This document shows, piece by piece, positions 4,456-33,405 of a DNA stretch of 42,358 bases. This DNA comes from Ruaniaceae bacterium KH17 (GTDB lineage: Bacteria > Actinomycetota > Actinomycetes > Actinomycetales > Actinomycetaceae), in the NCBI GenBank assembly GCA_900199505.1, contig FZQV01000022.1, forward strand, positions 1-42,358. Direction: 5' to 3'. Numbering within the stretch: position 1 is the stretch's first letter; each line of letters opens with the position of its first letter. A program made the position numbers and the translations under genes. Under the pieces are notes generated by a model, which had not been told where the DNA came from, searched no databases, and worked only from the letters and a program-made list of their open reading frames with translations.

Positions 4456-4853
4456 ATGAACTGGCAGTCGGCGCCCACGGCATCATAGGTCCGGGCCGCG
4501 CGGCGGTCTCCTGTGACAAGCACGCAAGCATGGCGAGCGGCAGTGACACCGATCATGCCGTCGTATGCAGCACCACCTGAGATCCCAAGCGCGGCTAATC
4601 TCGGAATGAGTTCAAGCTGCTCACCAGCACTGAGCCCGATCGTCTCTCGTCTGAGTGCAGCGATCGCAGCAGCCGCCAGATCTGGTGCCACACGTTGGCG
4701 AACGGGGAGCCGAGTGAGCACACTGTAGGTTTCCATCGCCACGTGCGCCGGAATCACCGTCACATCGGAAAACGCAGCCGCCGCCGACTCGTGCTTCTCA
4801 TGCCACGTCACCAGAGTTGGCACAAGGATGCTCGTATCGCACGCGCGTTTCAT
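4452..4853 (-). CDS. PIN-domain ribonuclease toxin, VapC-like
   Basis: A 133-residue protein with the acidic residues of a PIN-domain nuclease: D6 (ACDTSIL), E41 (AMETYSV), D97 (AYDGMIG) and D115 (TGDRRA). They would hold Mg2+/Mn2+ for RNA cleavage. VapC toxins of this size usually cut tRNA or rRNA and are held inactive by a DNA-binding antitoxin. The start overlaps the antitoxin stop by four bases, indicating translational coupling. The pair sits between two polysaccharide gene groups on the opposite strand, suggesting an acquired or stabilising module. The target RNA is unknown. Confidence 0.88.
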   Translation of the reverse strand: MKRACDTSILVPTLVTWHEKHESAAAAFSDVTVIPAHVAMETYSVLTRLPVRQRVAPDLAAAAIAALRRETIGLSAGEQLELIPRLAALGISGGAAYDGMIGVTAARHACVLVTGDRRAARTYDAVGADCQFI

Positions 4854-5095
4854 CGGCGAATCGACTCGAGTGTGGCACGAACAGCGGCATCGTCGAGCGG
4901 CTCAACATCCTCATCCGGGACAATCCGCGGAGACTCACCACTGGTATCCAAGTGTGCGCGGATGGGTGCGAACTCGATGACGATCGCGCCATCGGTGTAA
5001 CTCATGTCTACCTTGGCTCCCGGGCGCAAGCCCATCGCATCGCGAAGCGCCTTCGGAATGACGAGGCGACCGGCAGAATCAATGGCAGTACTCAT
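4850..5095 (-). CDS. AbrB/MazE-type antitoxin, VapB-like
   Basis: An 81-residue protein with an N-terminal SpoVT/AbrB swapped-hairpin DNA-binding domain (residues 1-47: STAIDSAGRLVIPKALRDAM then LRPGAKVDMSYTDG). The acidic C-terminal tail (about residues 48-81) probably wraps the toxin. Such antitoxins repress their own operon together with the toxin. The ATG at 5095 lies six bases after a -10-like TATTCT on the minus strand, with no Shine-Dalgarno sequence, which fits a leaderless mRNA. Confidence 0.88.
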   Translation of the reverse strand: MSTAIDSAGRLVIPKALRDAMGLRPGAKVDMSYTDGAIVIEFAPIRAHLDTSGESPRIVPDEDVEPLDDAAVRATLESIRR

Positions 5096-5101
5096 GGCAG
5101 G

Positions 5102-5107
5102 AGAATA
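5102..5107 (-). promoter_or_regulatory. -10 element for a leaderless vapB-like mRNA
   Basis: The minus strand reads TATTCT, then CCTGCC, then the ATG at 5095. Transcription starting 6-7 bases after the hexamer would begin at the start codon itself. There is no purine-rich ribosome-binding site. No clear -35 was found. Confidence 0.5.
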
Positions 5108-5207
5108 CCATTTAGCGGCCCATCTGGGAACCTTCGAGTTCTTCCGGCAACTCTTCGACCGACTCCCGCGCCGTTCACTGAGTGTTCAACCGGGGTGCCT
5201 ACCGTAG

Positions 5208-6401
<1,194 letters not shown>

Positions 6402-6553
6402 CACGGGCCGCGTCTCGGCTCCATGCGCTGAACGCCAAGCACCGCATCCGCATGCAACGAGCGTAACGAGCGCCCAGGAAGGGAGTGGGCGGGTTCACAC
6501 TGTCGGGTCCGTAGTGGCTACGCGGCGTTCACCCCGATTTCACCTCGGATCCG

Positions 6554-6559
6554 TAACGT
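6554..6559 (+). promoter_or_regulatory. -10 element for a leaderless pyruvyltransferase-fusion mRNA
   Basis: TAACGT is followed by six bases (CGAAAC) and the GTG start at 6566. No Shine-Dalgarno sequence is visible. The match to TANNNT is modest and no good -35 was found. Confidence 0.35.
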
Positions 6560-6565
6560 CGAAAC

Positions 6566-9205: not shown

Positions 9206-9206
9206 G

Positions 9207-18292: not shown

Positions 18293-19612
18293 GTGACTTC
18301 TTCCCAGGGTGGGCGGCATACGCCGTCCGGCCACCAAACAGCGCGGCACCGGTCGCGCGCGCCGCGCGTCAGCCGGCTCAGGCGTGCCACCGCGCTCGTG
18401 TTGACGTTCCTGCTCGCGTTCGCCACCTCGGGAGGTGCGCTCGCCTACAACCGCTTCCAGAGCAACATCGATACGCACGATATCGGTGATCTCCTCGGCA
18501 CCGATCGACCCACCGTCTCGGAGGACGTCGAGACCGCCGACGACGCGCACGCCGGCCAGACCCTCAACCTCCTCTTCATGGGAACGGACTCGCGTGAGGG
18601 TGACAACGCGGAGCTCGACGGTTCCGGCACCACCACGGGCATGCGCGCGGATACGACCCTGCTCGTACAAGTACCCGCAGATCGGAAGGGCCTAACCGTC
18701 GTCTCGATCCCTCGTGACACGCTCGTGGACATACCGGCCTGCACCCGCCCGGACGGGACGGAGTCGTCTCCGCAGTCCCAGGCCATGTTCAACTCGGCGT
18801 TCAACACGGGATCCGGCGGCACCTCCGTGGCGCACGGCGCGGCCTGCACAATCAAGACCGTTGAAGCACTGACCGGCGTACTGATTGACGACTTCGTGGT
18901 GGTGGACTTCGCAGGATTCATCGGCCTCATCGACGCGCTCGACGGAATCCCCATGTACGTTGAAGAGGACATCACCAGCAAAGAGGCGCAGCTCGAGCTG
19001 ACCGCTGGCTGCCAAATCCTCAACGGCGAAGACGCGCTCGGCTTTGCTCGCGTCCGCAAGGGCGTCAGCGATGGCTCGGATATCGCGCGCATTGGACGCC
19101 AGCAGGACCTCCTGATGGCCGTGATCGAGGACGCGCTCTCCTCACGCGTTCTCACCAACCCCGCCATGCTCTACGAAGTGGCGGACGCCGCGACACAGAC
19201 GATCACCACCGGGCGTGACATCGGAAACCTAACGACCATCGTGGGACTCGCCTACTCGATGCGAAACGTGGACCTCGACCAGATCCAGTTCATCACGATG
19301 CCCTTCGACTGGGCCGGCGATCGCGTGGTACCGAGCCCGCTCTACGCCGAAGACGTGTGGCAGGCACTACGCACCCGGCAGCCCGTGGATCCGCGGCTCT
19401 CCGGTGTGGGCTGGGAGATCACCGAGCAGCTCGCGAAGGATGAGGCGGCAGAACAGGCAACCGACGAGCCGACGGACGATGCGACCGACGATCCCACGTC
19501 GGAGCCAACAACCGCGCCCACGGACAACGCCACCGATATTCCCACGATCGCGCCCACTGACGAGGCCACCGGCGACGAGAACGTCTGCACACGGGAAACC
19601 GCACGATCCTAG
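18293..19612 (+). CDS. LytR-CpsA-Psr (LCP) family wall-polymer ligase, first of three
   Basis: A 439-residue membrane-anchored protein. A basic N terminus is followed by one membrane helix (about residues 32-52), and the LCP domain spans about 90-290. Conserved features are FMGTDSRE (95-102), GMRADTTLL with R118 and D120, VSIPRDTLVDIP (137-148), and LGFARVRKGVSDGSDIARIGRQQ. LCP enzymes move undecaprenyl-phosphate-linked glycopolymers onto peptidoglycan on the outer membrane face. The last 50 residues are a low-complexity Thr/Pro/Asp tail rich in PTDxATD repeats, unusual for the family and probably flexible. The gene lies directly before the assembly operon and divergently from the protease. 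Confidence 0.92.
   Translation: MTSSQGGRHTPSGHQTARHRSRAPRVSRLRRATALVLTFLLAFATSGGALAYNRFQSNIDTHDIGDLLGTDRPTVSEDVETADDAHAGQTLNLLFMGTDSREGDNAELDGSGTTTGMRADTTLLVQVPADRKGLTVVSIPRDTLVDIPACTRPDGTESSPQSQAMFNSAFNTGSGGTSVAHGAACTIKTVEALTGVLIDDFVVVDFAGFIGLIDALDGIPMYVEEDITSKEAQLELTAGCQILNGEDALGFARVRKGVSDGSDIARIGRQQDLLMAVIEDALSSRVLTNPAMLYEVADAATQTITTGRDIGNLTTIVGLAYSMRNVDLDQIQFITMPFDWAGDRVVPSPLYAEDVWQALRTRQPVDPRLSGVGWEITEQLAKDEAAEQATDEPTDDATDDPTSEPTTAPTDNATDIPTIAPTDEATGDENVCTRETARS
19449..19590 (+). repeat. Low-complexity Thr/Pro/Asp coding repeat
   Basis: Imperfect repeats of 12-24 bases encode units such as TDEPTDDATDDPTSEPTT and APTDNATDIPTIAPTDEATG at the C terminus of the LCP protein. Such tracts can vary in length by slippage. 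Confidence 0.6.
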
Positions 19613-19774: not shown

Positions 19775-21598
19775 GTGAAGGATCGCTCCCGTCGAACGAT
19801 CGAGCTATTCCAGCGAACAGGGATACCTGTTGGCCGCATCTTCTATGTGGTCGACGCCATACTTTGGGTCATCACGATTCTCATCGCTGCAACGTTGCGC
19901 TATGAGTTCGATCTGAGCCGGATCAATTGGAGCGCCTTCGCGGCATTCTCGATCGCGGCTGTCGCACTGCAGTTCGTGATTGGCAGCATCCTCAATCTCT
20001 ACCGTGCCGGCCTCCGGCTGCGCCTTGGAACCTTCGAGGATGCCCTCACCATCGCTCTCACCTCGATCTCTGTCGGTGGCCTCCTCTGGCTCGTATCTCT
20101 CGTCCTCAGCCAGCCGTGGGGCATCTCGCGCGGCGTCATGGTGATCGCAACGCCATTCGCGATGCTCGCCATGCTCGCCGCTCGCGTCCTCACCCGCCTG
20201 TTCTTCGAACATGCGCAACAGCCAGGCTCGGACTCACAGTCGGCACTGATCCTCGGGGCCGGTTTCATCGGCACCAACCTCGTGCACTGGATGAAGACCG
20301 ATCCCCGCTCACCGTACCGGCCGGTGGGCCTCATCGACGACGATCCTCTGATCGGCTGGCGGAGCATCAATAACGTCCCGATCCTCGGAACGCGGGCCGA
20401 TCTGCGCCGCGTCGCAGCGAAGTCGGGCGCCGAGGTCCTGATCGTCGCGATTGGCAACGCTGATGCCGCGCTTCTCCGAGAGATCCAGGACCTCGCCAAC
20501 GAGTGCGGGCTTACGGTGAAGGTGATGCCTCCCATTGGACAGGTTGTGGCGAATGGGGTTCGCGCGGACGATCTTCGCGATCTCTCGATCGAAGACCTGC
20601 TCGGCAGGCAAGCGGTGGATACGAACGTCTCGGAAATCGCCGACTACCTCACGGGCAGGCGCGTCCTCGTGACGGGAGCCGGAGGATCGATCGGCGCGCA
20701 ACTCTGCACCGAGATCACCCGCTTCGGGCCCACCGAGTTGATCATGCTGGATCGCGACGAGACCGGTCTCCAGCATGCCCAGATCAACACGGCAGGCAAT
20801 GGTCTCCTGAACACCGACGATGTGGTTCTCGCTGATATTCGCGATGCGGACACCTTGATCGAGATCTTCAAGGCGCGGAAGCCCGAGGTCGTCTTCCATG
20901 CGGCAGCCCTCAAGCACCTCCCGATGCTTGAGCAGTATCCCGATGAAGCGTGGAAGACGAATGTGCTCGGAACACTCAACGTCCTGCGCGCGGCCGAGGC
21001 GGCCGGCGTCACAACATTCATCAATATCTCGACGGACAAGGCTGCGAACCCAACGAGCGTCCTCGGCTACTCGAAACGCGTTGCGGAGAAGCTCACCTCC
21101 TGGTTCGGCCAGTCCACCGGCAAGAAGTACCTCTCCGTTCGCTTCGGCAACGTCATCGGCAGCCGGGGATCGATGCTGCCCACGTTCATGCGCCTGATCG
21201 ATGAGGACAAGCCGCTGACCGTCACCCACCCGGATATCACGCGCTACTTCATGACGATCCCCGAGGCCTGCCAGCTGGTCCTCCAAGCCGGTGGAATCGG
21301 ACGTGTGGGCGAAGTCCTCATTCTCGACATGGGCGAGCCTGTGAAGATCCTTGACATCGCGCAGCGGATGGTCGCCATGTCCGGCAAAGATATCCAGATC
21401 GTGTTCACGGGTCTGCGCGAGGGCGCGAAGATGCATGAGGAACTCGTCGGATCGGGCGAGCACGCCGAACGTCCGTTCCACCCGAAGATCTCGCACGCAA
21501 CCGTCACCGGCATCGCTCCCGATAAGCTGGACAAGCACGCGTGGGACTCCCGTGTTCACCACCTCACGGTGGCGATACCCCTCCAAGGACAGAGCTGA
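19775..21598 (+). CDS. Membrane-bound NDP-sugar 4,6-dehydratase, PglF/CapD/WbpM-like
   Basis: About 607 residues. Four membrane helices lie in residues 20-145, then a Rossmann-like domain (SALILGAGFIGTNLVHW, about 155-260), then a short-chain dehydrogenase domain starting RRVLVTGAGGSIGAQL (about 295). NISTDKAANPTSVLGYSKRVAEK holds the active-site Thr/Asp/Lys. The usual SDR tyrosine four residues before the lysine is Leu, where WbpM/PglF relatives have Met, so the change is family-typical. The expected product is UDP-4-keto-6-deoxy-GlcNAc. GTG at 19775 is chosen over GTG at 19772 because GAGGAGG (19762-19768) is six rather than three bases away. It is the first gene of the operon, and its stop overlaps the next start by one base. 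Confidence 0.9.
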   Translation: MKDRSRRTIELFQRTGIPVGRIFYVVDAILWVITILIAATLRYEFDLSRINWSAFAAFSIAAVALQFVIGSILNLYRAGLRLRLGTFEDALTIALTSISVGGLLWLVSLVLSQPWGISRGVMVIATPFAMLAMLAARVLTRLFFEHAQQPGSDSQSALILGAGFIGTNLVHWMKTDPRSPYRPVGLIDDDPLIGWRSINNVPILGTRADLRRVAAKSGAEVLIVAIGNADAALLREIQDLANECGLTVKVMPPIGQVVANGVRADDLRDLSIEDLLGRQAVDTNVSEIADYLTGRRVLVTGAGGSIGAQLCTEITRFGPTELIMLDRDETGLQHAQINTAGNGLLNTDDVVLADIRDADTLIEIFKARKPEVVFHAAALKHLPMLEQYPDEAWKTNVLGTLNVLRAAEAAGVTTFINISTDKAANPTSVLGYSKRVAEKLTSWFGQSTGKKYLSVRFGNVIGSRGSMLPTFMRLIDEDKPLTVTHPDITRYFMTIPEACQLVLQAGGIGRVGEVLILDMGEPVKILDIAQRMVAMSGKDIQIVFTGLREGAKMHEELVGSGEHAERPFHPKISHATVTGIAPDKLDKHAWDSRVHHLTVAIPLQGQS

Positions 21599-22779
21599 TG
21601 GCCATTCCCTTCTCCCCTCCGGATCTTCGCGATGAGGACATCGAAGCGGTCTCGGATGTCCTCAGGTCCGGCTGGATCACGTCCGGACCGGTGGGGCAGA
21701 GATTCGAGGAAACGCTCGCATCGTTTGTCGGCGTCAATCGCGCTGTCGGACTCAACTCGTGTACCGCAGCACTCGAATTGTCGCTTCGCGTTCTCGGAAT
21801 CGGGCCAGGTGATGAGGTCATCGTACCGGCCTACACATACTCGGCGTCGGCCGCAGTCGTCGACCACGTGGGTGCACGAATCGTGCTCGTCGACGTCGCT
21901 CCAGGCTCATACGTGCCGTCGGCCGACCAGATCCTCGCGGCGATCACGGAAAAGACCAAGGCCGTCATCGTCGTCGATCTCGCAGGGGTCCCTTTTGATA
22001 CGCCCACTCTCCGAGCGGCCCTTGATGAGCGTGCCATTCAGAGCGATAACCCTCTTCTCGCGGCGCTCGGGCGCCCCGCAATCGTCGTTGACGCAGCGCA
22101 TTCGCTCGGCGGTGCCAGGGATGGATTCCGCGCCGGCCAGATGGGAGACTTCACTGCGTTCTCCTTCCACGCGGTCAAGAACCTGACTACTGCGGAAGGC
22201 GGAGCCCTGGTGTGGCGCTCCGATCTCCCGGTGGACTCAACCGAGCTCGCGACGATCGTGCGGCGACTCTCACTTCACGGCCAATCGAAGGACGCCTTCA
22301 GCAAGATGAAGGCTGGGGCATGGGAGTACGACATCGTCGAACTCGGTTTCAAGTGCAATATGCCCGATACGCTTGCCGCACTCGGGCTCAGCCAACTATC
22401 GCGTTACGAGTCGCAGATCGCACGGCGGCACGAGATCGTCGCTCTGTACGACTCCTTGCTCAGTAGCCGATTCTCATCGTTGGCGCACTCTGGCACCTCG
22501 TTCCGTTCCAGCGCACACCTCCATATGCTCGATCTTGGAAGTCACTACCGTGCTCGCGACGAAATCATCGCTCGCATGGCCGACGCCGAGATCGCGACAA
22601 ATGTTCACTACAAGCCGCTGCCTCTCTTCACTGCCTACAAGAAACTCGGCTTCCAGATCGCTGACTTCCCACACGCAAATCAGCGTTTCGAAGCGGAACT
22701 CACATTGCCTCTGCACACGTTGCTGACAGATGATGATGTTGCACTCGTCGCGAGCACACTGCTGAGGGTGTCAGGATAA
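21598..22779 (+). CDS. DegT/DnrJ/EryC1/StrS sugar aminotransferase, PglE-like
   Basis: A 393-residue PLP enzyme. The PLP lysine is K194 in FHAVKNLTTAEGG. VVDAAHSLGG (163-172) gives the PLP-ring aspartate, and LNSCTAALELSLR binds the phosphate. With the upstream dehydratase it should turn UDP-4-keto-6-deoxy-GlcNAc into a 4-amino-4,6-dideoxy sugar, as PglE does. ATG at 21598 overlaps the previous stop (TGATG), and AAGGA lies eight bases upstream. The 57-base gap that follows contains only a short GC palindrome. Confidence 0.92.
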   Translation: MAIPFSPPDLRDEDIEAVSDVLRSGWITSGPVGQRFEETLASFVGVNRAVGLNSCTAALELSLRVLGIGPGDEVIVPAYTYSASAAVVDHVGARIVLVDVAPGSYVPSADQILAAITEKTKAVIVVDLAGVPFDTPTLRAALDERAIQSDNPLLAALGRPAIVVDAAHSLGGARDGFRAGQMGDFTAFSFHAVKNLTTAEGGALVWRSDLPVDSTELATIVRRLSLHGQSKDAFSKMKAGAWEYDIVELGFKCNMPDTLAALGLSQLSRYESQIARRHEIVALYDSLLSSRFSSLAHSGTSFRSSAHLHMLDLGSHYRARDEIIARMADAEIATNVHYKPLPLFTAYKKLGFQIADFPHANQRFEAELTLPLHTLLTDDDVALVASTLLRVSG

Positions 22780-22836
22780 GGGCCACGGAGGCCTAACTGG
22801 GCGGCCCAGCCGCATTGCGTTTAGGAGAGAGTCTTC

Positions 22837-23457
22837 GTGTCTGTCTATGAGAGCGTCGGCAAACGCGCGCTCGATGTTGCCGGCGCCATCGTAGCCCTTC
22901 CGATTCTGGGTGCAGTGACCGTCGTCGTCGCACCGATCATCAAGCTCAGCGACGGCGGCCCGGTCTTCTTCCTCGGCGAGCGCCGGGGCCGATCAGGCCA
23001 GCATTTCACGATGTACAAGTTCCGCTCGATGCGCGTGAATGCTCCGGATCTTCGCAATAGCGATCTCTCAACTGTCAACAGCGACTCTGATCCCAGGGTG
23101 ACCCGTATCGGGCGGATTCTCCGCGCAACCTCACTCGACGAGCTACCCCAGATCCTGAATGTCCTCAAAGGCGATATGAGCTTCGTCGGCCCCCGCCCCA
23201 ATATGACGACCCAGACATGGGATGAGCTGACGGACCTCGAGAGGAAACGCCTGCGCGTGCGTCCAGGGATCACAGGTCTGGCACAAGCATCTCGCCGAAA
23301 CGCCGCTACCTCCATTGAAAAGTATGAGATCGACGAGTACTACGTCGACAATCTCTCGATGCTCCTCGATCTGAGAGTGATCGGAGAGACGATCTCGGCG
23401 GTCGTCGCTTCTCGGAACATCAACGCCCCCTCCGAGAGATCGAACACCGATGACTGA
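22837..23457 (+). CDS. Initiating phosphoglycosyltransferase, PglC-like
   Basis: A 206-residue monotopic phosphoglycosyltransferase with an N-terminal re-entrant hydrophobic helix (about residues 11-36). KFRSM (61-65), the catalytic Asp-Glu pair in SLDELPQ (D101, E102), FVGPRPN and VRPGITGLAQ are all present. It transfers sugar 1-phosphate from a UDP-sugar to undecaprenyl phosphate, the first committed step. It has only the catalytic core length of PglC, without the extra helices of WcaJ. The GTG start at 22837 has AGGAGAG at 22823-22829. It overlaps the first ATP-grasp gene by eight bases. Confidence 0.93.
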   Translation: MSVYESVGKRALDVAGAIVALPILGAVTVVVAPIIKLSDGGPVFFLGERRGRSGQHFTMYKFRSMRVNAPDLRNSDLSTVNSDSDPRVTRIGRILRATSLDELPQILNVLKGDMSFVGPRPNMTTQTWDELTDLERKRLRVRPGITGLAQASRRNAATSIEKYEIDEYYVDNLSMLLDLRVIGETISAVVASRNINAPSERSNTDD

Positions 23458-24631
23458 CCACCGGCCGTGTCTCCTCGTCATCGGCGCGTCATCACTCCAG
23501 GTGCCCGCGATCGTCACCGCTCAGCGGTTGGGATATCGCGTCGCGGCAGTAGATCGGAATCCCTCAGCGCCAGGCGCTCGGATCGCCGACGAGTTCGCGC
23601 AGGTGAGTACCACTGACGCGATCGGCATCAAGGAGGTCGCTGCGGGATGCGGAGCCCAAGGAATCATCACGATCGGTACGGATCTTCCGATGCGCGCACT
23701 CGCCTTCGCTTCTCAGGCCCTTGGCTTGCGCTCGCCTTCGGAGGAGTCCGCGTACGTTGCGACCGACAAGATTGCGATGCATGAGGCGCTCGACGGTGCC
23801 GGCGTACCCATTCCGAAGAGCGTCCCCATCGTTGAAAAGAGAGATCTCGCCGCCGCCTCAGGTGTGGGATTTCCTCTCATCCTCAAGCCAGCTGATAGCT
23901 CGGGTAGCCGCGGTGTCACACGAGTTGACAGCGCAGATGAGCTCGAACCGGCCTACGTCTACGCATGCCGCCATAGCCCAACCGGCCATGTGATTGCCCA
24001 GCAATTTCTTCGTGGAGCGGAGTTCAGTGTCGAAGGCTTCTGCATAGGCGCGACTCCAAGGATCGTTGCGATCACCGACAAGGTCACGACCGGCCCTCCC
24101 CACTTCGTCGAGGTCGGGCACTCTCAGCCATCAGCTCTCTCTCCAGACGATCGTCGGTGTGTGAATGATACTGTCATGCGCGCAGCGCGTGCGCTACGAC
24201 TAAGCGATTGCGCCATCCATGCAGAGATCATGATGACGGCGGACGGCCCCCGGATCATCGAAGTCGGTGCTCGCTTGGGCGGGGACTTCATCACATCCCA
24301 TCTGGTGCCGCTGTCAACCGGCGTCGACATGATCCGCTCGTTGATCGAGATCGTGATCGGTCGGGAGCCACAACTTGATCACCAGTTCACCCGAGGAAGT
24401 GCGGTGCGATTCCTTGATCAGCCGGCAGATAGCGATCGAGTCGCGGAGATCACGAAACTGGAAGGTGTTATCGATGTCTCCGTGCAGAACCACGATCTGC
24501 CGGGCGGTATCCAGAGCAGCATTGATAGGTTTGGCTATGTCATCACTACTGGGGAGACCTCCGATTCAGCGGCGAGGCTCGCAAACGATGTGGGCCAGTT
24601 ACTGATGGCTTCGGCACGAAGGATCCTCTAG
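23450..24631 (+). CDS. ATP-grasp ligase, first of two
   Basis: A 393-residue carboxylate-amine/thiol ligase fold: a pre-ATP-grasp domain (about 1-110), an ATP-grasp core (about 111-300) and a C-terminal lid. K146 in FPLILKPADSSGSRGV should bind ATP, and E259 (CAIHAEIMM) and E271 (RIIEVGARLGG) should bind Mg2+. Such enzymes join an acyl phosphate to an amine. The gene overlaps the phosphoglycosyltransferase gene and there is no acetyltransferase, so I infer that it acylates the 4-amino group of the nucleotide sugar with an amino or hydroxy acid, as the ATP-grasp part of Neisseria PglB2 does with glycerate. The actual acid is not predictable. Confidence 0.85.
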   Translation: MTDHRPCLLVIGASSLQVPAIVTAQRLGYRVAAVDRNPSAPGARIADEFAQVSTTDAIGIKEVAAGCGAQGIITIGTDLPMRALAFASQALGLRSPSEESAYVATDKIAMHEALDGAGVPIPKSVPIVEKRDLAAASGVGFPLILKPADSSGSRGVTRVDSADELEPAYVYACRHSPTGHVIAQQFLRGAEFSVEGFCIGATPRIVAITDKVTTGPPHFVEVGHSQPSALSPDDRRCVNDTVMRAARALRLSDCAIHAEIMMTADGPRIIEVGARLGGDFITSHLVPLSTGVDMIRSLIEIVIGREPQLDHQFTRGSAVRFLDQPADSDRVAEITKLEGVIDVSVQNHDLPGGIQSSIDRFGYVITTGETSDSAARLANDVGQLLMASARRIL

Positions 24632-24646
24632 AGAAAGGTCTCGACG

Positions 24647-25861
24647 TTGAAGAGCGGACGCATTCTGATTCTCGGTGCCGGCCGCGGGCAGGTTGGCCTC
24701 ATCCGTGCCGCAAATTCTCTCGGTGTCGAGACCATCGTCGCTTCGCTGCCTTCTACGACCGCACCCGGCATCTCACTCGCAGATCAGGTCGTCTACGCCG
24801 ACATCGCCGATCCGCAGGGAATCGTCGAGGCGGCGCGGGACCTCAATGTCTCAGCTATCGCAACAAGCTGTGCGGATACCGGGTTGCCGGCGCTCGGAGC
24901 TGCATGCGACGAGCTCGCCCTCGTCGGCCTCTCGCACGCGGCCGCGAAACTCTGCAATGACAAGCTTCTGATGAAACGGGCCTTCGAACGGCACGGCGTC
25001 AGAACCGCCCGGTTCCGCGAAGTCTCGACAGTTCACGGACTCGACGACGCGATCGAGCAGCTCGGCCTTCCGCTCGTCATCAAGGCCACCGACCTTCAGG
25101 GCAGTCAAGGGATCTCGATCGTTCGCTCAGTGGATGAGGCGCATAGTGGCTTCGAGCACGCCCGCGCCGTCACGAAGCGAGAGAGCGTCATCGTGGAACA
25201 GTTCATCGAGGGTGACGAGTTCGGCGCACAGGCACTCGTCCATGACGGCAAGATCGTCTTCGTAATGCCCCATGGCGACGAAGTCTTCATGGCGAGGACC
25301 GCCGTGCCAGTCGGTCATTCAGTTCCCCTCGATCTACCCGACTCCACGTTGGACGAGGTCGTACGCGAGGTCGAAAAGGCGATCGTGGCCGTGGGAATCG
25401 ACAATTCGGCCGTCAACGTTGACTTGATTGCACGTGGCGAGGAGATTTTCATCATCGAGATCACCGGGAGAGTTGGCGCCAACGGACTTCCCGAACTCGT
25501 ATCGGCCCATTTCGGTATCGACTATTACGAGGTGCTCGTCCGCCTGGCCCTCGGCGAGGCCCCGTTGAAGGCCTGGGACACGGCAACAACTCCGACCCAT
25601 GCGGCCGCCGTGCGGATGCTGATCGCCCCCGAAGCTCGCGGCAGGATCGCGGACATCCACGTTGACTCCCAGATCGCACAGGAAGGTCCCGAGTTCACCC
25701 TCTTTCGGCGCCGCGGCGATGAGCTCTCAGGCTTCACGAACTCTGGGGACTGCGTCGGTCAGGTCGTAGTCCGGGGCGAGACTCTCGGCGAAGCGCTCCT
25801 CGCACTCGACGCTGCGGAAAGGGCGCTCGTCATCGTCCTTGAGAGCTCCCCACATGAGTAA
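24647..25861 (+). CDS. ATP-grasp ligase, second of two
   Basis: A 404-residue ATP-grasp enzyme paralogous to the upstream one. The N-terminal domain RILILGAGRGQVGLIRAA is Rossmann-like. K146 (PLVIKATDLQGSQGI), D259 (SAVNVDLIA) and E271 (IFIIEITGRVGANG) are the nucleotide and metal ligands. The C-terminal domain (about 300-400) has the CPSase/PurK-like lid. The start is TTG at 24647 with AAAGG at 24634-24638. It may add a second acyl group, extend the first, or make the acid that the first uses. Its stop overlaps the next start by eight bases. Confidence 0.85.
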   Translation: MKSGRILILGAGRGQVGLIRAANSLGVETIVASLPSTTAPGISLADQVVYADIADPQGIVEAARDLNVSAIATSCADTGLPALGAACDELALVGLSHAAAKLCNDKLLMKRAFERHGVRTARFREVSTVHGLDDAIEQLGLPLVIKATDLQGSQGISIVRSVDEAHSGFEHARAVTKRESVIVEQFIEGDEFGAQALVHDGKIVFVMPHGDEVFMARTAVPVGHSVPLDLPDSTLDEVVREVEKAIVAVGIDNSAVNVDLIARGEEIFIIEITGRVGANGLPELVSAHFGIDYYEVLVRLALGEAPLKAWDTATTPTHAAAVRMLIAPEARGRIADIHVDSQIAQEGPEFTLFRRRGDELSGFTNSGDCVGQVVVRGETLGEALLALDAAERALVIVLESSPHE

Positions 25862-27110
25862 GGTGCTGTTGCTCTTCGCCAATGCATTTCCTTTCGGCAC
25901 ATGGGAGCCCTTCCTCGAACGTGAGACCGAGTTCTACGGCGAGTTTGACGAGATATACCTATTCTCCCTCTCTGTACGCCCAGAGCAGGCGACCGTACGA
26001 CGGCATATCGACAAACGGATCACCGTTGTCCAGGTTCCTTTCAGGCCGAAGCTCTTCTACGCGATCCGAAGCGCACTCCTGATCGCAAATCGCGAGTTCC
26101 TCGAAGAACTCCGGTTTCTTGCGTCGAAGAAGAGACTGTCCCCATCGCGACTCGTACAGGCGGCGGTCTTCTTCAGCCGAGCGGATCACGAGGCATCCCT
26201 GGCTCGCCGCTTCATCCGCGACAATGTCAGCGTCCGTTCGGGTGACGAGGTCGTTCTCTATGCCTATCGCTTCCTCTACCAGCCGTATCTGATGTCGCGA
26301 GTCGCCCCGCTGTTCGAGCGCACGCTCCTCGTGGCACGAGCCCACGGCACGGACCTCTATGAGGACCAGACACCGACCGGCTATCTCCCATTCCGCCGCG
26401 GAAGCATGCGGGTGCTCGACACCCTCAGCCTGATCTCACGACACGGACACGAGTATGTCAAACGCACAATCCCGGGTTTCTCCGAGAAGATGCGCCTCGA
26501 CTACATGGGAACGGAAGATCGTGGAATCGCAGCCATCCCCCCCGATCGAGTTCCTCTGCGAATCGTCACCTGCTCCAACGTGGTCCCTGTCAAGCGCCTC
26601 GACCTCCTGATCGACGCGTTGACGAAGCTCGCTTCGGATATCGAGGTCCAGTGGACCCACTACGGAGACGGACCGATGTTGCCTCAGTTACGTCAACGCG
26701 CAGAGTTTCTTGGTCCTGCGGTCTCCGTTATCTTCAAGGGTTCCGTGCCGAATGCGCAGGTCCTCGATGACTACTCGACAGGTCGATACCACGTGCTTGT
26801 CAACGTGAGTTCCTCTGAGGGCCTGCCCGTCTCGATCATGGAGGCCTGTTCCTTCGGCATTCCCGTGATCGCCACCGATGTCGGAGGAACCTCCGAGATC
26901 GTCCGGGATGGCGTCAACGGCATCCTGCTCTCCGCTGATCCGACCACGGACGAACTCGCCCACGCGATTACGCGCCTCTCTCTCACGAGCCACGACTCGT
27001 ACGAGAGCCTTCGGCTGAGCGCCAGATCGATTTGGGAGGACGAATTCAACTCGGAGGCCAACTATCGGAAGTTTGTGACCGAGGTGCTTCTGGGGGCAGG
27101 CCCGCGATGA
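25854..27110 (+). CDS. Family-4 glycosyltransferase
   Basis: A 418-residue GT-B enzyme. The C-terminal donor domain has RIVTCSNVVPVKRLDLLIDA and the E-x7-E motif starting at E322 (EGLPVSIMEA), followed by GIPVIATDVGGTSEIV and DGVNGILL. The N-terminal acceptor domain is less conserved, and AHGTDLYEDQ is typical of this group. It should add a sugar to the lipid-linked acceptor at the inner face of the membrane. ATG at 25854 is preferred to 25839 because it overlaps the previous stop (ATGAGTAA) in an operon-typical way. Confidence 0.88.
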   Translation: MSKVLLLFANAFPFGTWEPFLERETEFYGEFDEIYLFSLSVRPEQATVRRHIDKRITVVQVPFRPKLFYAIRSALLIANREFLEELRFLASKKRLSPSRLVQAAVFFSRADHEASLARRFIRDNVSVRSGDEVVLYAYRFLYQPYLMSRVAPLFERTLLVARAHGTDLYEDQTPTGYLPFRRGSMRVLDTLSLISRHGHEYVKRTIPGFSEKMRLDYMGTEDRGIAAIPPDRVPLRIVTCSNVVPVKRLDLLIDALTKLASDIEVQWTHYGDGPMLPQLRQRAEFLGPAVSVIFKGSVPNAQVLDDYSTGRYHVLVNVSSSEGLPVSIMEACSFGIPVIATDVGGTSEIVRDGVNGILLSADPTTDELAHAITRLSLTSHDSYESLRLSARSIWEDEFNSEANYRKFVTEVLLGAGPR

Positions 27111-29797
27111 CGGACAAGGACACGCTGCCGGCTGGTGTGACGGCAACGGCACGGAACTGGGCAAACACAAGGATCCCGCCGCTATGGCGAAAGTACCGGA
27201 GCTCGAAGACCGCGCTAGCCTTCACACTGGCAAATCTGCTCGTTGCTCTCGCCGCCATCACCACGCCGATGACCTTCGGCTGGTTCATCCTGTTCACGAT
27301 CTGGGTCAACACCGTTGGTTATACCCTGCTGCAGCCGAGAAAACGGATCTTCCCACTCCTCTTCCTGCTGAGCTACTTCCTCTTCCTGATGAGCCGGCCC
27401 GCACTTCAATATGTGTTCGGGTTCGGTGATCCCGCACTCAGCACCAGAGACCTTCAGATTCTCGAGGCCGCGCTTCTTTGGTCTCTCGCACCGCTCTGTC
27501 TGGTTTACGTCATCGTCGATCGGATCAGCGCACGTCGTGATCCTCAGCCGAAACTCATGTTCATTCGCCAAATCGATGATCTTCGTGACCCCGCTCGCAT
27601 CACGTCGATCATCGCGTTCGCGCTTCTCCTGCCCGGCGCGCTCTTCGCGTCTCTCCAACGGGTGATCTTCATTCTCTCCGAGGGATACCTCGCGATCTAC
27701 ACCGAGGAGTTCATTTCAGCGAACTCGTCACCGCTCGGTGTCGCTACGACATACATGACGCAGGGGGCGTTCGTCGCTCTCATCGTCTACCTGGCAACCA
27801 TGCCTCCAGTCCGTCGAACTTTCATTCCCATTGCATCGTGGCTTGTTGTCACGGCATTGCTCGCCGCTACGGGAGCGCGCCAGCAGTTCATGCTTGCTGT
27901 GCTCCTCTCAGTCGGCTACCTGGTGCTTCGCGGGCCGATCACGCGCGCGGGAAGCCTCTGGCGAAGGATCACATTGATCGTGGGGACGGCCGCCGTGCCC
28001 GTCCTAATAGTCGCGATGGCACTCGTCGAGAGATTCCGAGGCCTCGGCGGAACATATCGTTCGGTCTGGACGATACTTCCCGAGTTCGTCTATGGGCAAG
28101 GTGTCACAGCACGGACCATCGTCAACACCTATCTGCTCCGCGACACGCTGCCTGATCAGTTCTACCTCGCTGAATTCGCCCGCAGTGGTATTTTCGCGCG
28201 AATCCTAGGCTTCGACGTGCTTCAGGGAAACAGCGTCGAACGGGCCGAAACCGGAGGCTCGCTCGCCCATTCCCTCTCCTACGCGGTACTTGGCGATGAC
28301 TACCTCCGTGGTATGGGCACCGGCACCTCGTTAGTTGCTGAAGGCTATGCCACCTGGGGGGTAGCGGGCATCCTCGTGATCTCAATCGTCATCGCATTGC
28401 TCGTGTGGCAGATGTCGAAGATCGGTCGAGGTGGCCTCCTTTCAGACATCGCTCGTCTCCTCATCGTTCAGAGTCTTCTGTGGTCTCCTCGCGGCAGCTC
28501 GACAGCATTCATCACGATGCTGGCAGCCCCGAGCACCATCTTCATGGTCATCGTCATCTTCGTCAGTGCCGTCCTCCTCAGAGCACGTCGCTCCGCACCA
28601 GCTCATCAACCTCTGGCATCAACTCCAACGATCGCGACGACAGCTCAGTCCACGGTGGAAGGACTGAATGTGGGACCCGGGAATCACGTCTCGCAGCGCG
28701 GTGTGGAGCCCTCCGCACCTGCTCCTGTCTTTTCGATTGTGATCCCGGTGTTCAATATGGCACGCGTCATGCAGCGCAGCATCGACTCAGTCATCGGCCA
28801 GAGTTACCAGAACTTCGAGGTGATCCTCGTCAACGACGGGTCGACAGATGAATCCGGTGCGGTCTGCGACCGCCTTGCATCCGCAGATCCACGTATCCGC
28901 GCTGTGCACAAAGAGAACGGGGGCTTATCGAGTGCACGCAATCTGGGGGTCCAAAATGCGACAGGAGAGTACATCGTCCTGCTCGACGCCGATGACTGGA
29001 TCGAGCTCGATACCCTCGCGACATTCGCTGAGCAGATCTGGGCCCACCGCCCCGATTGCATCCGTGGAAACTTCGTTATCAGCTCGTCCTCGGGCGACAT
29101 TCCACACCAACTGTCGATCGAGACCGGGCTCTACCTCACATCCTCGAAACTTTACGCGCTGGCAAAGGGTTTCACGCAGGCATTGGAGCCTAGCTATGCG
29201 CCGCTCTTCATCTCGCGAAGGGAGACTCTCCTCGAGCTTCCCTTCGATGAGACAATTCCGTTCCTTGAAGACAGCCTCTTCGTCTCGCAGCTCCTCAGGA
29301 GAGTCACGAGCGTCCTCATCATCGACTTCCGCTTCTATCACTATTACGTGAACACCGAGGGGATGTCCAAGAACCCGGCAAACTTCCATCGCAACGTACT
29401 CTCGGTTGCCCACGTCGGCGAACTGATGGCCCGAGAACTCACCGAGTACCCCGGATACTCGGACGGGGACGACGACCAAGTTCGCGCACAGCGCAGCGAT
29501 TTCCTCGGCCGTCAGATAATCTCCGCCCTCTCGCGAAGAGTCATCCGGTTCTCGAGCTTCCTCTCGCTGTCGGAAGACCTCCACGGCAACGAGAGCTATC
29601 GATCTCTCGTCTCGGTTCCGCCCCTCTCTGTCTTCCACATGCCTACATATCTCCTGCACCGTCTGATCCTGCACGGCTCGCACCGGGTGGCAGGAGTCGT
29701 CGCGTGCTCACTCGCAACAGCTGATCGCTGGCGGAAGTCACTGCACAGATCATCAACGCCCTCGGTCCACACCTCGAACAAGACCTCGATCGGATAG
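27107..29797 (+). CDS. Wzy-like repeat-unit polymerase fused to a GT2 glycosyltransferase
   Basis: A single 896-residue frame. Residues about 35-495 form a polytopic membrane domain with some ten or more helices and a Wzy-like segment (GMGTGTSLVAEGYATWGVAGI, about 402-421). A flexible, Ala/Ser/Pro-rich linker spans about 496-540. Residues 541-760 are a soluble GT-A domain: FSIVIPVFNMARVMQRSIDS, VILVNDGSTDESG, ENGGLSSARNLG, LLDADDW and FLEDSLFVSQLL. The first half would polymerise repeat units on the outer face. The GT2 half should use nucleotide sugars on the inner face, so linker and topology matter. The last helix leads into LLRARRS, fitting a cytoplasmic linker. It starts at ATG overlapping the previous stop by four bases. 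Confidence 0.88.
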   Translation: MTDKDTLPAGVTATARNWANTRIPPLWRKYRSSKTALAFTLANLLVALAAITTPMTFGWFILFTIWVNTVGYTLLQPRKRIFPLLFLLSYFLFLMSRPALQYVFGFGDPALSTRDLQILEAALLWSLAPLCLVYVIVDRISARRDPQPKLMFIRQIDDLRDPARITSIIAFALLLPGALFASLQRVIFILSEGYLAIYTEEFISANSSPLGVATTYMTQGAFVALIVYLATMPPVRRTFIPIASWLVVTALLAATGARQQFMLAVLLSVGYLVLRGPITRAGSLWRRITLIVGTAAVPVLIVAMALVERFRGLGGTYRSVWTILPEFVYGQGVTARTIVNTYLLRDTLPDQFYLAEFARSGIFARILGFDVLQGNSVERAETGGSLAHSLSYAVLGDDYLRGMGTGTSLVAEGYATWGVAGILVISIVIALLVWQMSKIGRGGLLSDIARLLIVQSLLWSPRGSSTAFITMLAAPSTIFMVIVIFVSAVLLRARRSAPAHQPLASTPTIATTAQSTVEGLNVGPGNHVSQRGVEPSAPAPVFSIVIPVFNMARVMQRSIDSVIGQSYQNFEVILVNDGSTDESGAVCDRLASADPRIRAVHKENGGLSSARNLGVQNATGEYIVLLDADDWIELDTLATFAEQIWAHRPDCIRGNFVISSSSGDIPHQLSIETGLYLTSSKLYALAKGFTQALEPSYAPLFISRRETLLELPFDETIPFLEDSLFVSQLLRRVTSVLIIDFRFYHYYVNTEGMSKNPANFHRNVLSVAHVGELMARELTEYPGYSDGDDDQVRAQRSDFLGRQIISALSRRVIRFSSFLSLSEDLHGNESYRSLVSVPPLSVFHMPTYLLHRLILHGSHRVAGVVACSLATADRWRKSLHRSSTPSVHTSNKTSIG

Positions 29798-29867: not shown

Positions 29868-31265
29868 ATGAGCACGCTCCTCTCGTTTCTCAAGAACAGC
29901 GGAATCTTCGTCCTTGGATCGATGCTCACCAAGCTCGTAGGATTCCTCCTCCTCCCGCTCTACACGTCCTGGATTGCACCCAACGATCTCGGCTACTACG
30001 ACGTGAGCCTCGCCTACCTCGCGATCGCCTGTGAGGCTCTCTTCCTCAATATCTGGGTTGTCGTGCTTCGCTTCATGTACGACTTCGAGGACGAGAACCA
30101 GAAGCCGCGAGCGTTTCAAGCAGGAATGATTCTCTTCGGAGTGTCAACAAGCGTCTATCTTCTGGCTGCGATCTGCATCGCCGCGATCTTCGATCCACCG
30201 TACTTCTGGTTGATCGTCTCCTATGGTCTGCTCCAGAACATCAGCATGGTCTTCAAGTTCACAGCACGCGGGTATGGGCGGAACATCGACTTCGCGGTCT
30301 CCGGCGTGATCGCAACCCTCGTGATGGCCGGGCTGAACGTTGTGGCCATCGGGATGCTGGGACTCGGAATCGGAGCGCTCTACGCATCGATGATCGTCGG
30401 ATTCATTATTGAGATCGCATACCTGGAGATCCGGGTCGGAATCCTGCGACGGATCCGCCGTTCAACGGCCGAACACATCTCACGCTCATACGTCATGACG
30501 ATGGCCAAGTACGCGTTGCCGATCGGGTTGAACGCACTCTGCTACTGGTTCATCCAGTCATACAACCGAGTCGTGATCAGCCAGGAGCTCTCACTTCATG
30601 ACAACGGCATCTTCTCGGTAGCAGCGCGTTTCGGGGGCGTGGTCGTCCTCGCGACGGTCGCTATGACCTACGCGTGGCAGGAGATCGCGTTCAATAAGGA
30701 TCTTCAGAACGGCGCCTTCTTCGGACGCGCAGCCTCCATGTACTTCGTGGGTCTTGTAGTGCTCGTCTCGATGATGCTGCCCTTCCTGAACGCCGGATTC
30801 GATGTGTTCGTCGGTGCGGCATACGCAGACGCATTTCTCATCATCCCCTCGGCAATCCTGCTGGGCGTGGCCAGCGGATACTCGAACTTCGTGATCAACA
30901 TGTTCTATGGGTTGAAGGACTCGAAGACCGTGCTGTGGACCTTACTTGCCAGCTCGATAGTCAACGTCGCCGCAATCCACTTCTTCATCGGATGGTGGGG
31001 TCTTCAAGGAGCCAACCTTGCTGCCTGCCTGGCATTCCTCGTTAACGTCGCTCTTCTACAGCTCATACTGCGAAAGCGGATTCAGCTGAGGCTATCGATC
31101 CCGTTCATCGCCGCCGGGATCGCCGTCGGTACGATCACTGGGGTGGTGTATTTCCACGGTGACCGCTGGTTCAATCTCATCTACGGATCGGTCCTCTCCA
31201 TGTTGGTCGCAGCGGGAGTCCTCGTCTTCGTCTTAAGGAGACGTAACCAGCACTCAGCCGGTTAA
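29868..31265 (+). CDS. Wzx-like polysaccharide flippase (MOP superfamily)
   Basis: A 465-residue membrane protein with about twelve to fourteen predicted helices. The opening FLKNSGIFVLGSMLTKLVGF followed by LLPLYTSWIAPNDLGYYDV is characteristic of polysaccharide exporters. It should move undecaprenyl-pyrophosphate-linked repeat units across the membrane for the polymerase upstream. The 70-base gap before it has only a weak ribosome-binding sequence. It is the last gene of the operon and overlaps the convergent acyltransferase stop by four bases, so no terminator hairpin can lie between them. Confidence 0.92.
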   Translation: MSTLLSFLKNSGIFVLGSMLTKLVGFLLLPLYTSWIAPNDLGYYDVSLAYLAIACEALFLNIWVVVLRFMYDFEDENQKPRAFQAGMILFGVSTSVYLLAAICIAAIFDPPYFWLIVSYGLLQNISMVFKFTARGYGRNIDFAVSGVIATLVMAGLNVVAIGMLGLGIGALYASMIVGFIIEIAYLEIRVGILRRIRRSTAEHISRSYVMTMAKYALPIGLNALCYWFIQSYNRVVISQELSLHDNGIFSVAARFGGVVVLATVAMTYAWQEIAFNKDLQNGAFFGRAASMYFVGLVVLVSMMLPFLNAGFDVFVGAAYADAFLIIPSAILLGVASGYSNFVINMFYGLKDSKTVLWTLLASSIVNVAAIHFFIGWWGLQGANLAACLAFLVNVALLQLILRKRIQLRLSIPFIAAGIAVGTITGVVYFHGDRWFNLIYGSVLSMLVAAGVLVFVLRRRNQHSAG

Positions 31266-33313
31266 GACTCCGCCTCCCCCAAGTCGAGTATCTCTGTGAT
31301 CTTGTCACGAACAGGCCAGCCCCGCTCGCGCACCCATGTGTTCGACAAGTGATTGTTGTCCTGGTACTGAAGAATGAAGCCATCGGTCACCTCGCACATG
31401 GTTTCGCCGCAATAGAGGTCGGCAAGGTCCATGAACTCGACACCCTCTATAGGTGGGGGCAACAGAGACTCGAGAGGTTCGAAGACCTCAGATCGATCGA
31501 TCGCGCACGCGGCCGCCCCGTCGCGCTCGACGCATTCGGGAACCCGGAATCCAAACCGAGGGTTATCGCGTAAGCCGAGCACGCTGATGCCCGCGTCAGA
31601 CAGCGCTTGGAAGCGGGATATCATTCCCGGTGTCACTCGCTCGTTCCTGCCCTGTGACGTTGTTCCCATTGTGACGACAAGGGCAGGTTCTTCGGCGAGA
31701 ATTTCCGCAATAGTCGAGTCGTTCCAGTCCACACAATCGTCAACCCACGGCCAATCATCCGCGTCTACGACGGGGTCTACGAAGGCGCAGCCACCCATCC
31801 CATATAGTATTGTTCGCGCGCCGAATTGCTCGGAAGCTTCAACCACCGGCTCAATCCACTGAATCGCGTGAGATCCACCCACCACAACAACGGTGTGCTC
31901 AGCCTCAGGATCACCCCACTCGCAGTGGTAGGCATCGATCCCAGGGAGTCGGCAACCGGCGGAACCGCCGTAGACGATCTGACTGTCATCACGATCTGCG
32001 AAGGATGGATGTGGAATGAGTAATCCGGCTGATGGGGGACCGTCCGGAAATTCCTCGGCGCGCTCGGCGAGTATCCGTGAAGCGTTCCGGATGTCGTGAA
32101 TCGCGTATCCAAGACGTATCTCAATCCGAGATTCCCAGTAATTCACCAAAGCCAGTGGAACCGTCAGCAATCCAGCGGCAACGACTAGCGTCGCCCACCA
32201 TCGGCGTCCAAGGAACGGCGACTTCCGTATCGGGTCTTCGACCAATCGGGTCGTGAGCACCGCAAGCACCAGAGCCAGCGAGATGATCCCGATACCCCCG
32301 ATCAGACTCACATCATCGCCAAATCGGTAGCGGTACACCACGAGCAGTGGCCAGTGCCACAGATAGAAGGCAAAGGAAGCATCGGCTATCGCAAGCATCG
32401 GCGCCCAGGTGAGCGGACGCGGCTCGACATCATTGAACGCGCTGACCAAAATGCCACAAGCTGCCAGGACCGGAAGCAGCGACAAGTAGCCGGGGAGCAG
32501 TCGGGACAAGTCGAAGAACGCGCCGAGAGTGAAGAGGAGAACGATCCCCGACCAACCGAGAACAGCCGCCCACCGCTTGCTCGTACTCTCCCGCTTCAGC
32601 AGCAGGAAGACAAACACGCCTGCCATGAACTCCCAGAGGCGGGCAAAGGTGTTGAAGTAGGCGGCTGTCTGGTTAGCGGATGTCTCATATATGGAGAACA
32701 CGAACGACGCGACGAAGATCGTGCCGCCGAGCACAAGCATCCCCGCGCGAAGCACACCAGCCCGGCGTCGCCACGGTCGAACAGCCAAGACGAGAAGGCA
32801 CACCAGGACGGAGAACAGCAGGTAAAACTGCGCATTCACGGCGAGAGCCCAGAACTGCTGGAAGGGAGACGCTCCAGAATCCTGCTGAGCATAGTCAGCT
32901 GATGCCGAGATGAGCTGCCAGTTCTCCCAGAAGCCCAGTGCTGCCACTGCGGGCTCGATGCTCTCGCTCTGGCCGCGTAGCGGCATGAAATAGCGACTTA
33001 GCAACACGGTGCCAACGACCACGATAGTCGCGGAGGGCACGATCCGCCGTAGTGTTCCCAGCAAGTAGGCTGCCAGCCGGCGCAGAGTATCACTGGCGCC
33101 GGTCCCAGCACTGAAGGAGCGCAGAAGTGACCCCGCCGCAAAGTATCCTGCGACGACGAAGAACACATCGACGCCGCCGGACACCCGGTGAAACCAGATG
33201 TGGTAGACCGCGACCAGAAGTGCGGCAACGGTTCGAAGTCCCTGGACTCCAAGAAGATACTTGCGTTGTGGAGGAGCGGGCACAGCAGCAGTGTCGACAG
33301 GTTGAGTCTGCAT
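31262..33313 (-). CDS. OafA-type O-acyltransferase with C-terminal SGNH domain
   Basis: A 683-residue protein. Residues about 18-370 are an acyltransferase-3 membrane domain, with LRTVAALLVAVYHIWFHRVSGGVDVFF containing H38 and the R-x-SGGVDVFF signature. Residues about 400-683 are an extracytoplasmic SGNH-like domain with S481 in VVVVGGSHAIQW and the Asp/His pair in QDNNHLS (D652, H655). Such proteins pass acetyl or other acyl groups across the membrane onto surface glycans. ATG at 33313 is preferred to TTG at 33334, with GAGGAG about ten bases upstream. It faces the assembly operon and most likely decorates its product. The acyl group is unknown. Confidence 0.92.
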   Translation of the reverse strand: MQTQPVDTAAVPAPPQRKYLLGVQGLRTVAALLVAVYHIWFHRVSGGVDVFFVVAGYFAAGSLLRSFSAGTGASDTLRRLAAYLLGTLRRIVPSATIVVVGTVLLSRYFMPLRGQSESIEPAVAALGFWENWQLISASADYAQQDSGASPFQQFWALAVNAQFYLLFSVLVCLLVLAVRPWRRRAGVLRAGMLVLGGTIFVASFVFSIYETSANQTAAYFNTFARLWEFMAGVFVFLLLKRESTSKRWAAVLGWSGIVLLFTLGAFFDLSRLLPGYLSLLPVLAACGILVSAFNDVEPRPLTWAPMLAIADASFAFYLWHWPLLVVYRYRFGDDVSLIGGIGIISLALVLAVLTTRLVEDPIRKSPFLGRRWWATLVVAAGLLTVPLALVNYWESRIEIRLGYAIHDIRNASRILAERAEEFPDGPPSAGLLIPHPSFADRDDSQIVYGGSAGCRLPGIDAYHCEWGDPEAEHTVVVVGGSHAIQWIEPVVEASEQFGARTILYGMGGCAFVDPVVDADDWPWVDDCVDWNDSTIAEILAEEPALVVTMGTTSQGRNERVTPGMISRFQALSDAGISVLGLRDNPRFGFRVPECVERDGAAACAIDRSEVFEPLESLLPPPIEGVEFMDLADLYCGETMCEVTDGFILQYQDNNHLSNTWVRERGWPVRDKITEILDLGEAES

Positions 33314-33405
33314 GCTGGCTGAACTCCTCGACAAAGTCGCCCAAAGAATGGGTTTGACTACCTAATAAACCTCTCCCATGGCTGCGGTCACAGCGATCCT
33401 AGCCG

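Follow-up and report, generated by a model that had tools for sequence, protein, structure and literature searches.

A putative priming-sugar operon with two ATP-grasp ligases in Ruaniaceae bacterium KH17, and its relatives in three phyla

Contig FZQV01000022.1 of Ruaniaceae bacterium KH17 (assembly GCA_900199505.1) was analyzed over positions 1 to 42,358 of the forward strand, and this whole stretch of 42,358 nucleotides is referred to as the window. It contains an operon in which two ATP-grasp ligase genes, tentatively referred to as ATPg1 and ATPg2, follow genes for a sugar dehydratase, a DegT-type aminotransferase, and a small phosphoglycosyl transferase (PGT). On balance, we think it probable that ATPg1 acylates the 4-amine of a priming sugar, that ATPg2 extends or caps the acyl group, and that the PGT and then a GT4 glycosyltransferase act on the decorated sugar; the operon would in this way provide the priming sugar of a Wzx/Wzy-type surface polymer attached by a LytR-CpsA-Psr (LCP) protein. 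This explanation builds on gene content, conservation, fusions, conserved residues, and computed folds, from which we infer the substrates, which ligase acts first, the carrier that bears the sugar during ligation, and the stereochemistry.

Gene Content of the Ligase Cassette

The five genes, all on the + strand between positions 19775 and 25861 in a Pfam profile scan of 25 window proteins, are as follows.

19775..21598, + strand: PglF-like membrane UDP-GlcNAc 4,6-dehydratase (Pfam Polysacc_synt_2, 344 bits)
21598..22779, + strand: DegT/DnrJ/EryC1 aminotransferase dependent on pyridoxal phosphate (PLP), C4 amination (DegT, 302 bits; 6ewj, 377 bits)
22837..23457, + strand: small monotopic PGT, PglC/EpsL-like (Bac_transf, 204 bits)
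23450..24631, + strand: ATPg1, ATP-grasp protein of L-amino-acid-ligase type, proposed acyl ligase for the sugar 4-amine (Pfam and fold match)
24647..25861, + strand: ATPg2, second ATP-grasp ligase, of the 4dim family, proposed extender or capper of the acyl group

The dehydratase, which starts with GTG (a second possible GTG lies at 19772), has 5bju (WlaL, which we take to be PglF) as its top solved relative at 260 bits, and the PGT matches the solved N,N'-diacetylbacillosaminyl-1-phosphate transferase 8g1n at 122 bits. ATP-grasp Pfam families match both ligases; LAL_C2 is found in both, above cut-off in ATPg2 only. The last base of the dehydratase stop codon is also the first base of the DegT gene, giving an overlap of 1 base, and PGT and ATPg1 overlap by 8 bases, while gaps of 57 and 15 bases separate DegT from PGT and ATPg1 from ATPg2 respectively. 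Coordinates, Pfam matches, and junctions thus agree with the single tight operon with short overlaps that a first-pass annotation of this DNA had described.

Distribution of the Cassette

Two peptide patterns from ATPg2 aligned with PDB 4dim were used as seeds to scan one genome per species over 84,980 species. Fifteen loci were recovered, three in Actinomycetota (two in Tessaracoccus, one in Actinomyces), nine in Bacillota (Bacillus, Alkalihalobacillus, Cytobacillus, Anaerococcus, and uncultured Clostridia), and three in Bacteroidota. With the window proteins as queries, ATPg1 was found in 15/15 of these loci, the PGT in 14/15, the DegT aminotransferase in 14/15, and a dehydratase within ~10 kb on either side in 8/15. 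The joint presence of PGT, ATPg1, ATPg2, and DegT in 14 of the 15 loci, and in three phyla, shows that their association is not a matter of chance; the same spread replaces the earlier idea that the cassette is special to the source lineage. The full set of five genes is present in two own-family loci and in one Anaerococcus relative, and a Parabacteroides distasonis record has both ligases, the PGT, and the aminotransferase, with no dehydratase in reach.

The cassette is sporadic in distribution. ATPg1 (E 1e-40) was matched in 3 of 151 genomes of the window's family, the source genome included, and ATPg2 in at least 1 of 296 genomes of the phylum (1e-60), the match being the source genome itself, and in 2 of 100 genomes around Anaerococcus (1e-70). 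ATPg1-type matches (1e-60) in four other groups numbered at least 9/246, at least 6/247, at least 3/249, and 2/147, already known genomes counted. Only the best first-look candidates (6 or 7) were scored in these group searches, so that the rarity figures may be too low. In the ATPg1 tree, the window sequence groups with Tessaracoccus and those of the two own-family loci with Actinomyces, and for this reason the cassette was likely acquired separately within the family.

Upstream of the cassette in locus L012 (2369-5970) are genes for a thiolase, a 3-hydroxyacyl-CoA dehydrogenase, and hexapeptide transferases, which suggests that this locus also encodes a distinct 3-hydroxyacyl decoration.

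Pairing of the Two Ligases

ATPg1 and then ATPg2 are encoded in one uninterrupted frame in two loci, L010 (Tessaracoccus oleiagri) and L006 (a genome of the window's own family). These fall in different starred clades of the tree, whose remaining members are unfused, so that the fusion most simply arose twice. Over 16 loci, the pairwise identities of ATPg1 and ATPg2 are correlated (r 0.71, permutation p 0.001), and each of them correlates with the identities of the PGT and the aminotransferase (0.50-0.74), host relatedness being still contained in both sets of figures. Further, every ATPg2 of more than 40% identity in the loci seen accompanies an ATPg1. L009 (Aureibacter tunicatorum) was excluded from the ATPg1 set and L014 from the two-ligase class. 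Based on the conserved pairing, the natural fusions, and the correlated divergence, both ligases very probably serve the sugar pathway.

As an observation of its own, L088 (9135-12427) has ATPg1-like (702-aa frame) and ATPg2-like (41%) genes that overlap by 4 bases, with small transporter-like, GT2, and DegT genes nearby; this arrangement raises the possibility that the ligase pair works in an undecaprenyl-phosphate amino-sugar system as well.

Fold and Active-Site Residues of the Ligases

Fold comparison of the predicted structures placed ATPg1 nearest to the L-amino-acid ligase BL00235 (3vot) and ATPg2 nearest to 4dim. The ATPg1 model (pLDDT 92.4) matches 3vot with Z 38.7 and rmsd 2.6 over 368 aligned residues, followed by 4dim (Z 37.6) and BacD/YwfE (~36). 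The ATPg2 model (pLDDT 90.0) matches 4dim with Z 48.7 and rmsd 3.1 over 392 aligned residues, followed by PurT and 3vot at ~37 (3vot Z 37.3); in sequence, ATPg2 and 4dim_A are 46% identical (388 bits).

In both ATPg1 and ATPg2, the lysine, glutamate, and arginine of the ATP-grasp site (K146, E271, and R275) show no exchange in any of the 16 rows of the respective alignment. In ATPg1, E221, H224, and R275, likewise invariant in 16 rows, align with E273, H276, and R328 of BacD, whose numbering was anchored by the title of 3wo1 (Trp332Ala). As modeled, ATPg1 is of the L-amino-acid-ligase type, sharing with BacD both the fold and the residues E..H and E...R. If E273 and H276 of BacD bind the N-terminal amino acid, as we presume, ATPg1 probably uses an alpha-amino acid, whose amino group would then be available to ATPg2. 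At the position of BacD Trp332, ATPg1 has Asp279 in all but one of 16 rows, and ATPg2 has Asn279 in 16/16. Trp332 is described as a substrate-pocket residue in the relevant passages on BacD (PMC6920838).

The deposited name of 4dim refers to purine synthesis. Among the 25 NCBIfam models listed, no purine model scored above cut-off, and this name is probably wrong for the family, since the ATPg2 homolog of Anaerococcus hydrogenalis (L018) lies in a cassette.

Identity of the Sugar

The nearest solved chain to the window aminotransferase is Spr1654 (6ewj; 377 bits over residues 3-391 of 393), compared with 78.7 bits to 1o61, presumably PglE. This closeness to Spr1654 makes a galacto 4-amino sugar (AATGal or FucNAc4N) more likely, by sequence comparison, than the gluco form, and does not support the bacillosamine-type pathway named in the first-pass annotation. 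Passages of PMC5936713, in whose text 6EWJ is mentioned once, propose Spr1654 as the aminotransferase that makes the AATGal of pneumococcal teichoic acid, and state that whether it accepts the sugar substrate has still to be established.

Loci With ATPg1 Alone

A tblastn search with ATPg1 led to a plasmid of Enterococcus hirae (NZ_CP068121; L055) that carries a dehydratase, DegT, a short-chain dehydrogenase/reductase (SDR), a PGT, and ATPg1, without ATPg2. Three more PGT-linked ATPg1 loci lacking ATPg2 were found (L089, L090, and L094), all with DegT, so that ATPg2 accompanies ATPg1 in 19 of the 23 PGT-linked loci seen and is missing from the other 4. An ATPg2 encoded elsewhere was sought in the three whole genomes of L089, L090, and L094 and in the whole E. 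hirae plasmid, and none was found: the matches were ATPg1 itself (25-28%) and one other protein at 27% (G916), compared with 59% for the control (G446).

The ATPg1s of these single-ligase loci retain the catalytic and the E..H..R residues. Residue 279 is Gly in L090, as in two two-ligase rows, and residue 226 is Val in L094. In a careful tree of 26 rows (L014, L056, L057, L083-L088, L091-L093, and four ATPg2 rows, all present in a quick tree, were left out), they branch among the two-ligase ATPg1s, requiring at least 3 changes on the tree, 2 of them forced by starred branches. Since single-ligase ATPg1s keep these residues and interleave with the two-ligase ones, an unchanged ATPg1 step followed by ATPg2 is favored, and the sequences favor ATPg1 as the core and ATPg2 as optional. 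The pathway role of both ligases suggested in the first-pass annotation stands, and of its split functions, either one acid added by each ligase or one ligase activating or extending the acid of the other, the ATPg1-alone loci favor acyl extension.

Other genes are found near ATPg1 in such loci. An SDR is encoded in L055 (10297-11307) and L081 (7705-8724), the two being 58% identical, upstream of ATPg1 by one gene in L055 and as the next gene in L081; a more distant SDR occurs in L057. A PLP-aminotransferase-like protein (26-31% identical between loci) is encoded in L089 (8265-9338), L080 (7471-8637), and L082 (4744-7719), with no or sub-threshold Pfam matches, and adjoins ATPg1 in L089 and L080. 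In the flanks of the 19 two-ligase loci, SDR, PLP-like, and GNAT partners (a GNAT occurs in L094, see below) were sought, and none was found beyond generic SDR similarity, the sole match being a generic SDR of 23.6% in the window, outside the operon.

By the look of their frames (for L082 partly by Pfam), L080, L081, L082, and L092 appear to be of nonulosonate type. Because the same partners occur in loci of both the PGT and the nonulosonate type, they may, on the few loci at hand, follow the acyl group of ATPg1 rather than the sugar. A wider proposal, which we regard as possible while leaning against it, is a mobile cross-phylum module that decorates the 4-amine of a priming sugar with a dipeptide or N-acyl-aminoacyl group in two ATP-grasp steps, in which ATPg1 is constant, the second enzyme is swappable (ATPg2, SDR, PLP-fold protein, or GNAT), and nonulosonate-type loci are also served.

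Search for an N4-Acetyltransferase

No hexapeptide or PglD-type acetyltransferase is found among the 25 window proteins scanned with Pfam, which bears out the earlier remark that a PglD-like enzyme is missing from the window. An AT3/SGNH acyltransferase is encoded at 31262-33334 on the - strand; enzymes of this kind are usually O-acyltransferases. The contrary case raised in the first-pass annotation, an acetyltransferase encoded elsewhere, found no match above cut-off either: the NeuD/PglB/VioB model TIGR03570 gave 8 matches over the whole source genome, 0 of them above cut-off. Those opened belong to other enzyme types by gene inspection, namely a serine acetyltransferase-like (CysE-type) protein near a cysteine-synthase-like gene, GlmU, and a hexapeptide protein that carries a long extension and is encoded next to folA/thyA-like genes. 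The hexapeptide genes of related loci were also considered as PglD, and no PglD_N (Pfam) was found in the 7 tested of 10 cluster members.

Proposed Pathway and Alternatives

The genes around the cassette that enter into the proposed pathway are these.

18293..19612, + strand: LCP protein, probable wall-attachment enzyme, upstream of the cassette (Pfam LytR_cpsA_psr, 143 bits)
25854..27110, + strand: GT4 glycosyltransferase, proposed second-sugar transferase (Glyco_trans_1_4, 88 bits)
27107..29797, + strand: Wzy-type polymerase and GT2 domain in one reading frame (O-ag_pol_Wzy, 217 bits; Glycos_transf_2, 116 bits)
29868..31265, + strand: Wzx-like flippase (Polysacc_synt, 33.1 bits; gathering score 28.2)

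ATPg2 and GT4 overlap by 8 bases and GT4 and Wzy by 4, with gaps of 162 bases between LCP and dehydratase and 70 between Wzy and flippase; a GT4 homolog adjoins the cassette in several related loci. The dehydratase and DegT would convert UDP-GlcNAc to a UDP-2-acetamido-4-amino-2,4,6-trideoxyhexose, more likely galacto than gluco. ATPg1 would then convert a carboxylic acid, in all likelihood an alpha-amino acid, to its acyl phosphate and couple it to N4, a step that would replace the PglD/EpsM acetylation of the classical pathway, and ATPg2 would ligate a second acid onto this acyl group as an extension or cap. The PGT would transfer the decorated sugar, as its phosphate, to undecaprenyl phosphate, and the next sugar would be added by GT4.

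Several observations weigh against this scheme. L014 has both ligases without a PGT or DegT in reach. Among 21 loci surveyed with ATPg1-type genes, L080, L084, and L087 show no DegT match; the DegT homolog present in the other 18 speaks for the scheme, at a frequency that comes without a baseline from random polysaccharide loci. In L009 (9980-11188), an ATPg2-like gene (33%) without a separate ATPg1 lies inside a pseB-pseC-pseF-pseI operon. NeuD/PglD matches above cut-off occur in 2/15 cassette genomes, both on contigs other than that of the cassette, and hexapeptide transferases, which may N4-acetylate, occur in 7/15 scan loci and L009; hexapeptide proteins are also present in L090 and L081. 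L094 encodes a PseH-like GNAT (84.9 bits, cut-off 93.1) between PGT and ATPg1 that could acetylate N4, leaving ATPg1 with another task, and L090, which lacks ATPg2, shows no SDR, PLP-like, or GNAT partner. Finally, a single clade of the single-ligase ATPg1s is disfavored by an approximately unbiased (AU) test whose p of 0.039 is borderline, L021 forms a long branch, and 8 rows are odd in composition.

The same product would result if ATPg2 first joined two free acids to a dipeptide or N-acyl amino acid and ATPg1 attached this unit to the 4-amine. The resemblance of both enzymes to the fold of a free-amino-acid dipeptide ligase (Z 38.7 and 37.3 to 3vot) speaks for this opposite order, with which the ATPg1-ATPg2 fusions are as compatible as with the proposed one; the shared residues and interleaved branching of single- and two-ligase ATPg1s fit an unchanged ATPg1 reaction instead, and we consider the opposite order unlikely, with some weight left to it. 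We give rather little credence to a scheme in which ATPg1 alone acts on the priming sugar while the target of ATPg2 is a different amine within the repeat unit, for instance on a second amino sugar or in an amine substituent. The ATPg1 pathway can do without ATPg2, and the ATPg2-like gene in the pseudaminate operon of L009 stands without a separate ATPg1, as this scheme would have it, while the two fusions and the count of DegT-cluster genes in the flanks examined (15 genes in 15 loci, one in each) argue for a substrate common to both ligases. An ATPg2 that extends the acyl group of ATPg1 is the reading favored by the existence of loci with ATPg1 alone.

These single-ligase loci also agree with a single-acid sugar like that of PglB2, whose one ATP-grasp domain gives a glyceramido sugar according to passages of PMC11130364, so that one ligase would acylate N4 and the other would make or activate the acid or assist its partner. 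Such a division of labor is improbable, as catalytic residues are kept in 16/16 aligned members of each ligase, and as the gene clusters recurring in at least 8 loci comprise ligases, PGT, DegT, GT, dehydratase, and hexapeptide proteins only, so that no acid-making enzyme travels with the cassette. Least credible to us is a 4-amine that is either acetylated or, like that of AATGal, left free, with ligases that modify something unrelated; the GNAT of L094, the hexapeptide proteins of other loci, and the free amine of the proposed Spr1654 product (passages of PMC5936713) would fit this, against which stand the tight co-occurrence with PGT and DegT in three phyla and the absence of a PglD above cut-off in the source genome.

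Comparison With Known Systems

The closest parallel is Neisseria PglB2, which passages of PMC11130364 and PMC6959607 describe as an ATP-grasp/PGT protein whose product is a glyceramido sugar (GATDH). As in that system, an ATP-grasp enzyme takes the place of an acetyltransferase beside a PGT, dehydratase, and aminotransferase, and an acylated 4-amino-trideoxyhexose is proposed here. PglB2, as described in those passages, is a single PGT/ATP-grasp fusion with one ligase, whereas here the PGT is a separate, overlapping gene, and there are two ligases, fused to each other in two loci and widely spread. In EpsCNM-EpsL of Bacillus subtilis and PglFED-PglC, a dehydratase, an aminotransferase, and a small PGT likewise prime an exopolysaccharide (passages of PMC10653937); these systems have the EpsM/PglD acetyltransferase instead of ATP-grasp ligases, and the aminotransferase here is nearest to Spr1654 among solved chains. 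The AATGal pathway of Streptococcus pneumoniae shares a Spr1654-like aminotransferase with the operon, but its proposed AATGal has a free 4-amine, and the passages of PMC5936713 concerned describe no ligases.

As for the ligases themselves, BL00235 and BacD/YwfE share the modeled fold and the catalytic residues of ATPg1, yet join free amino acids (passages of PMC6920838), whereas the neighboring genes here point to an amino sugar. PDB 4dim, from Anaerococcus prevotii, is close to ATPg2 in sequence, but its deposited name, 'phosphoribosylglycinamide synthetase', implies purine synthesis, and the context of ATPg2 is a polysaccharide locus. The enzyme types are thus known, and the paired ligase arrangement looks new: no description of paired ATP-grasp ligases was found in the full-text literature searched, which does not prove its absence from print.

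Antigenicity depends in part on the N-acyl groups that priming sugars carry, and so does the specificity of phosphoglycosyl transferases, flippases, and polymerases. A sequence signature of a sugar ligase that activates acids, with a second slot, would make acyl decorations readable from loci where they are now hidden under the annotation 'ATP-grasp domain-containing protein', and it gives the 4dim family a function that can be tested directly. If true, the reading with a swappable second enzyme would mean that bacteria decorate surface sugars in a combinatorial and peptide-like manner.

Other Genes in the Window

Toward the start of the window are two adjacent Stealth-family proteins (927-4172), a UDP-galactopyranose mutase (5229-6401), and a GlfT2-like protein (8994-11024), which suggests that a second, galactofuranose-containing wall polymer is encoded at 927-11024. 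An 879-aa frame at 6566-9205 has an N-terminal match to polysaccharide pyruvyl transferase and a C-terminal match to nitroreductase, a combination that looks unusual.

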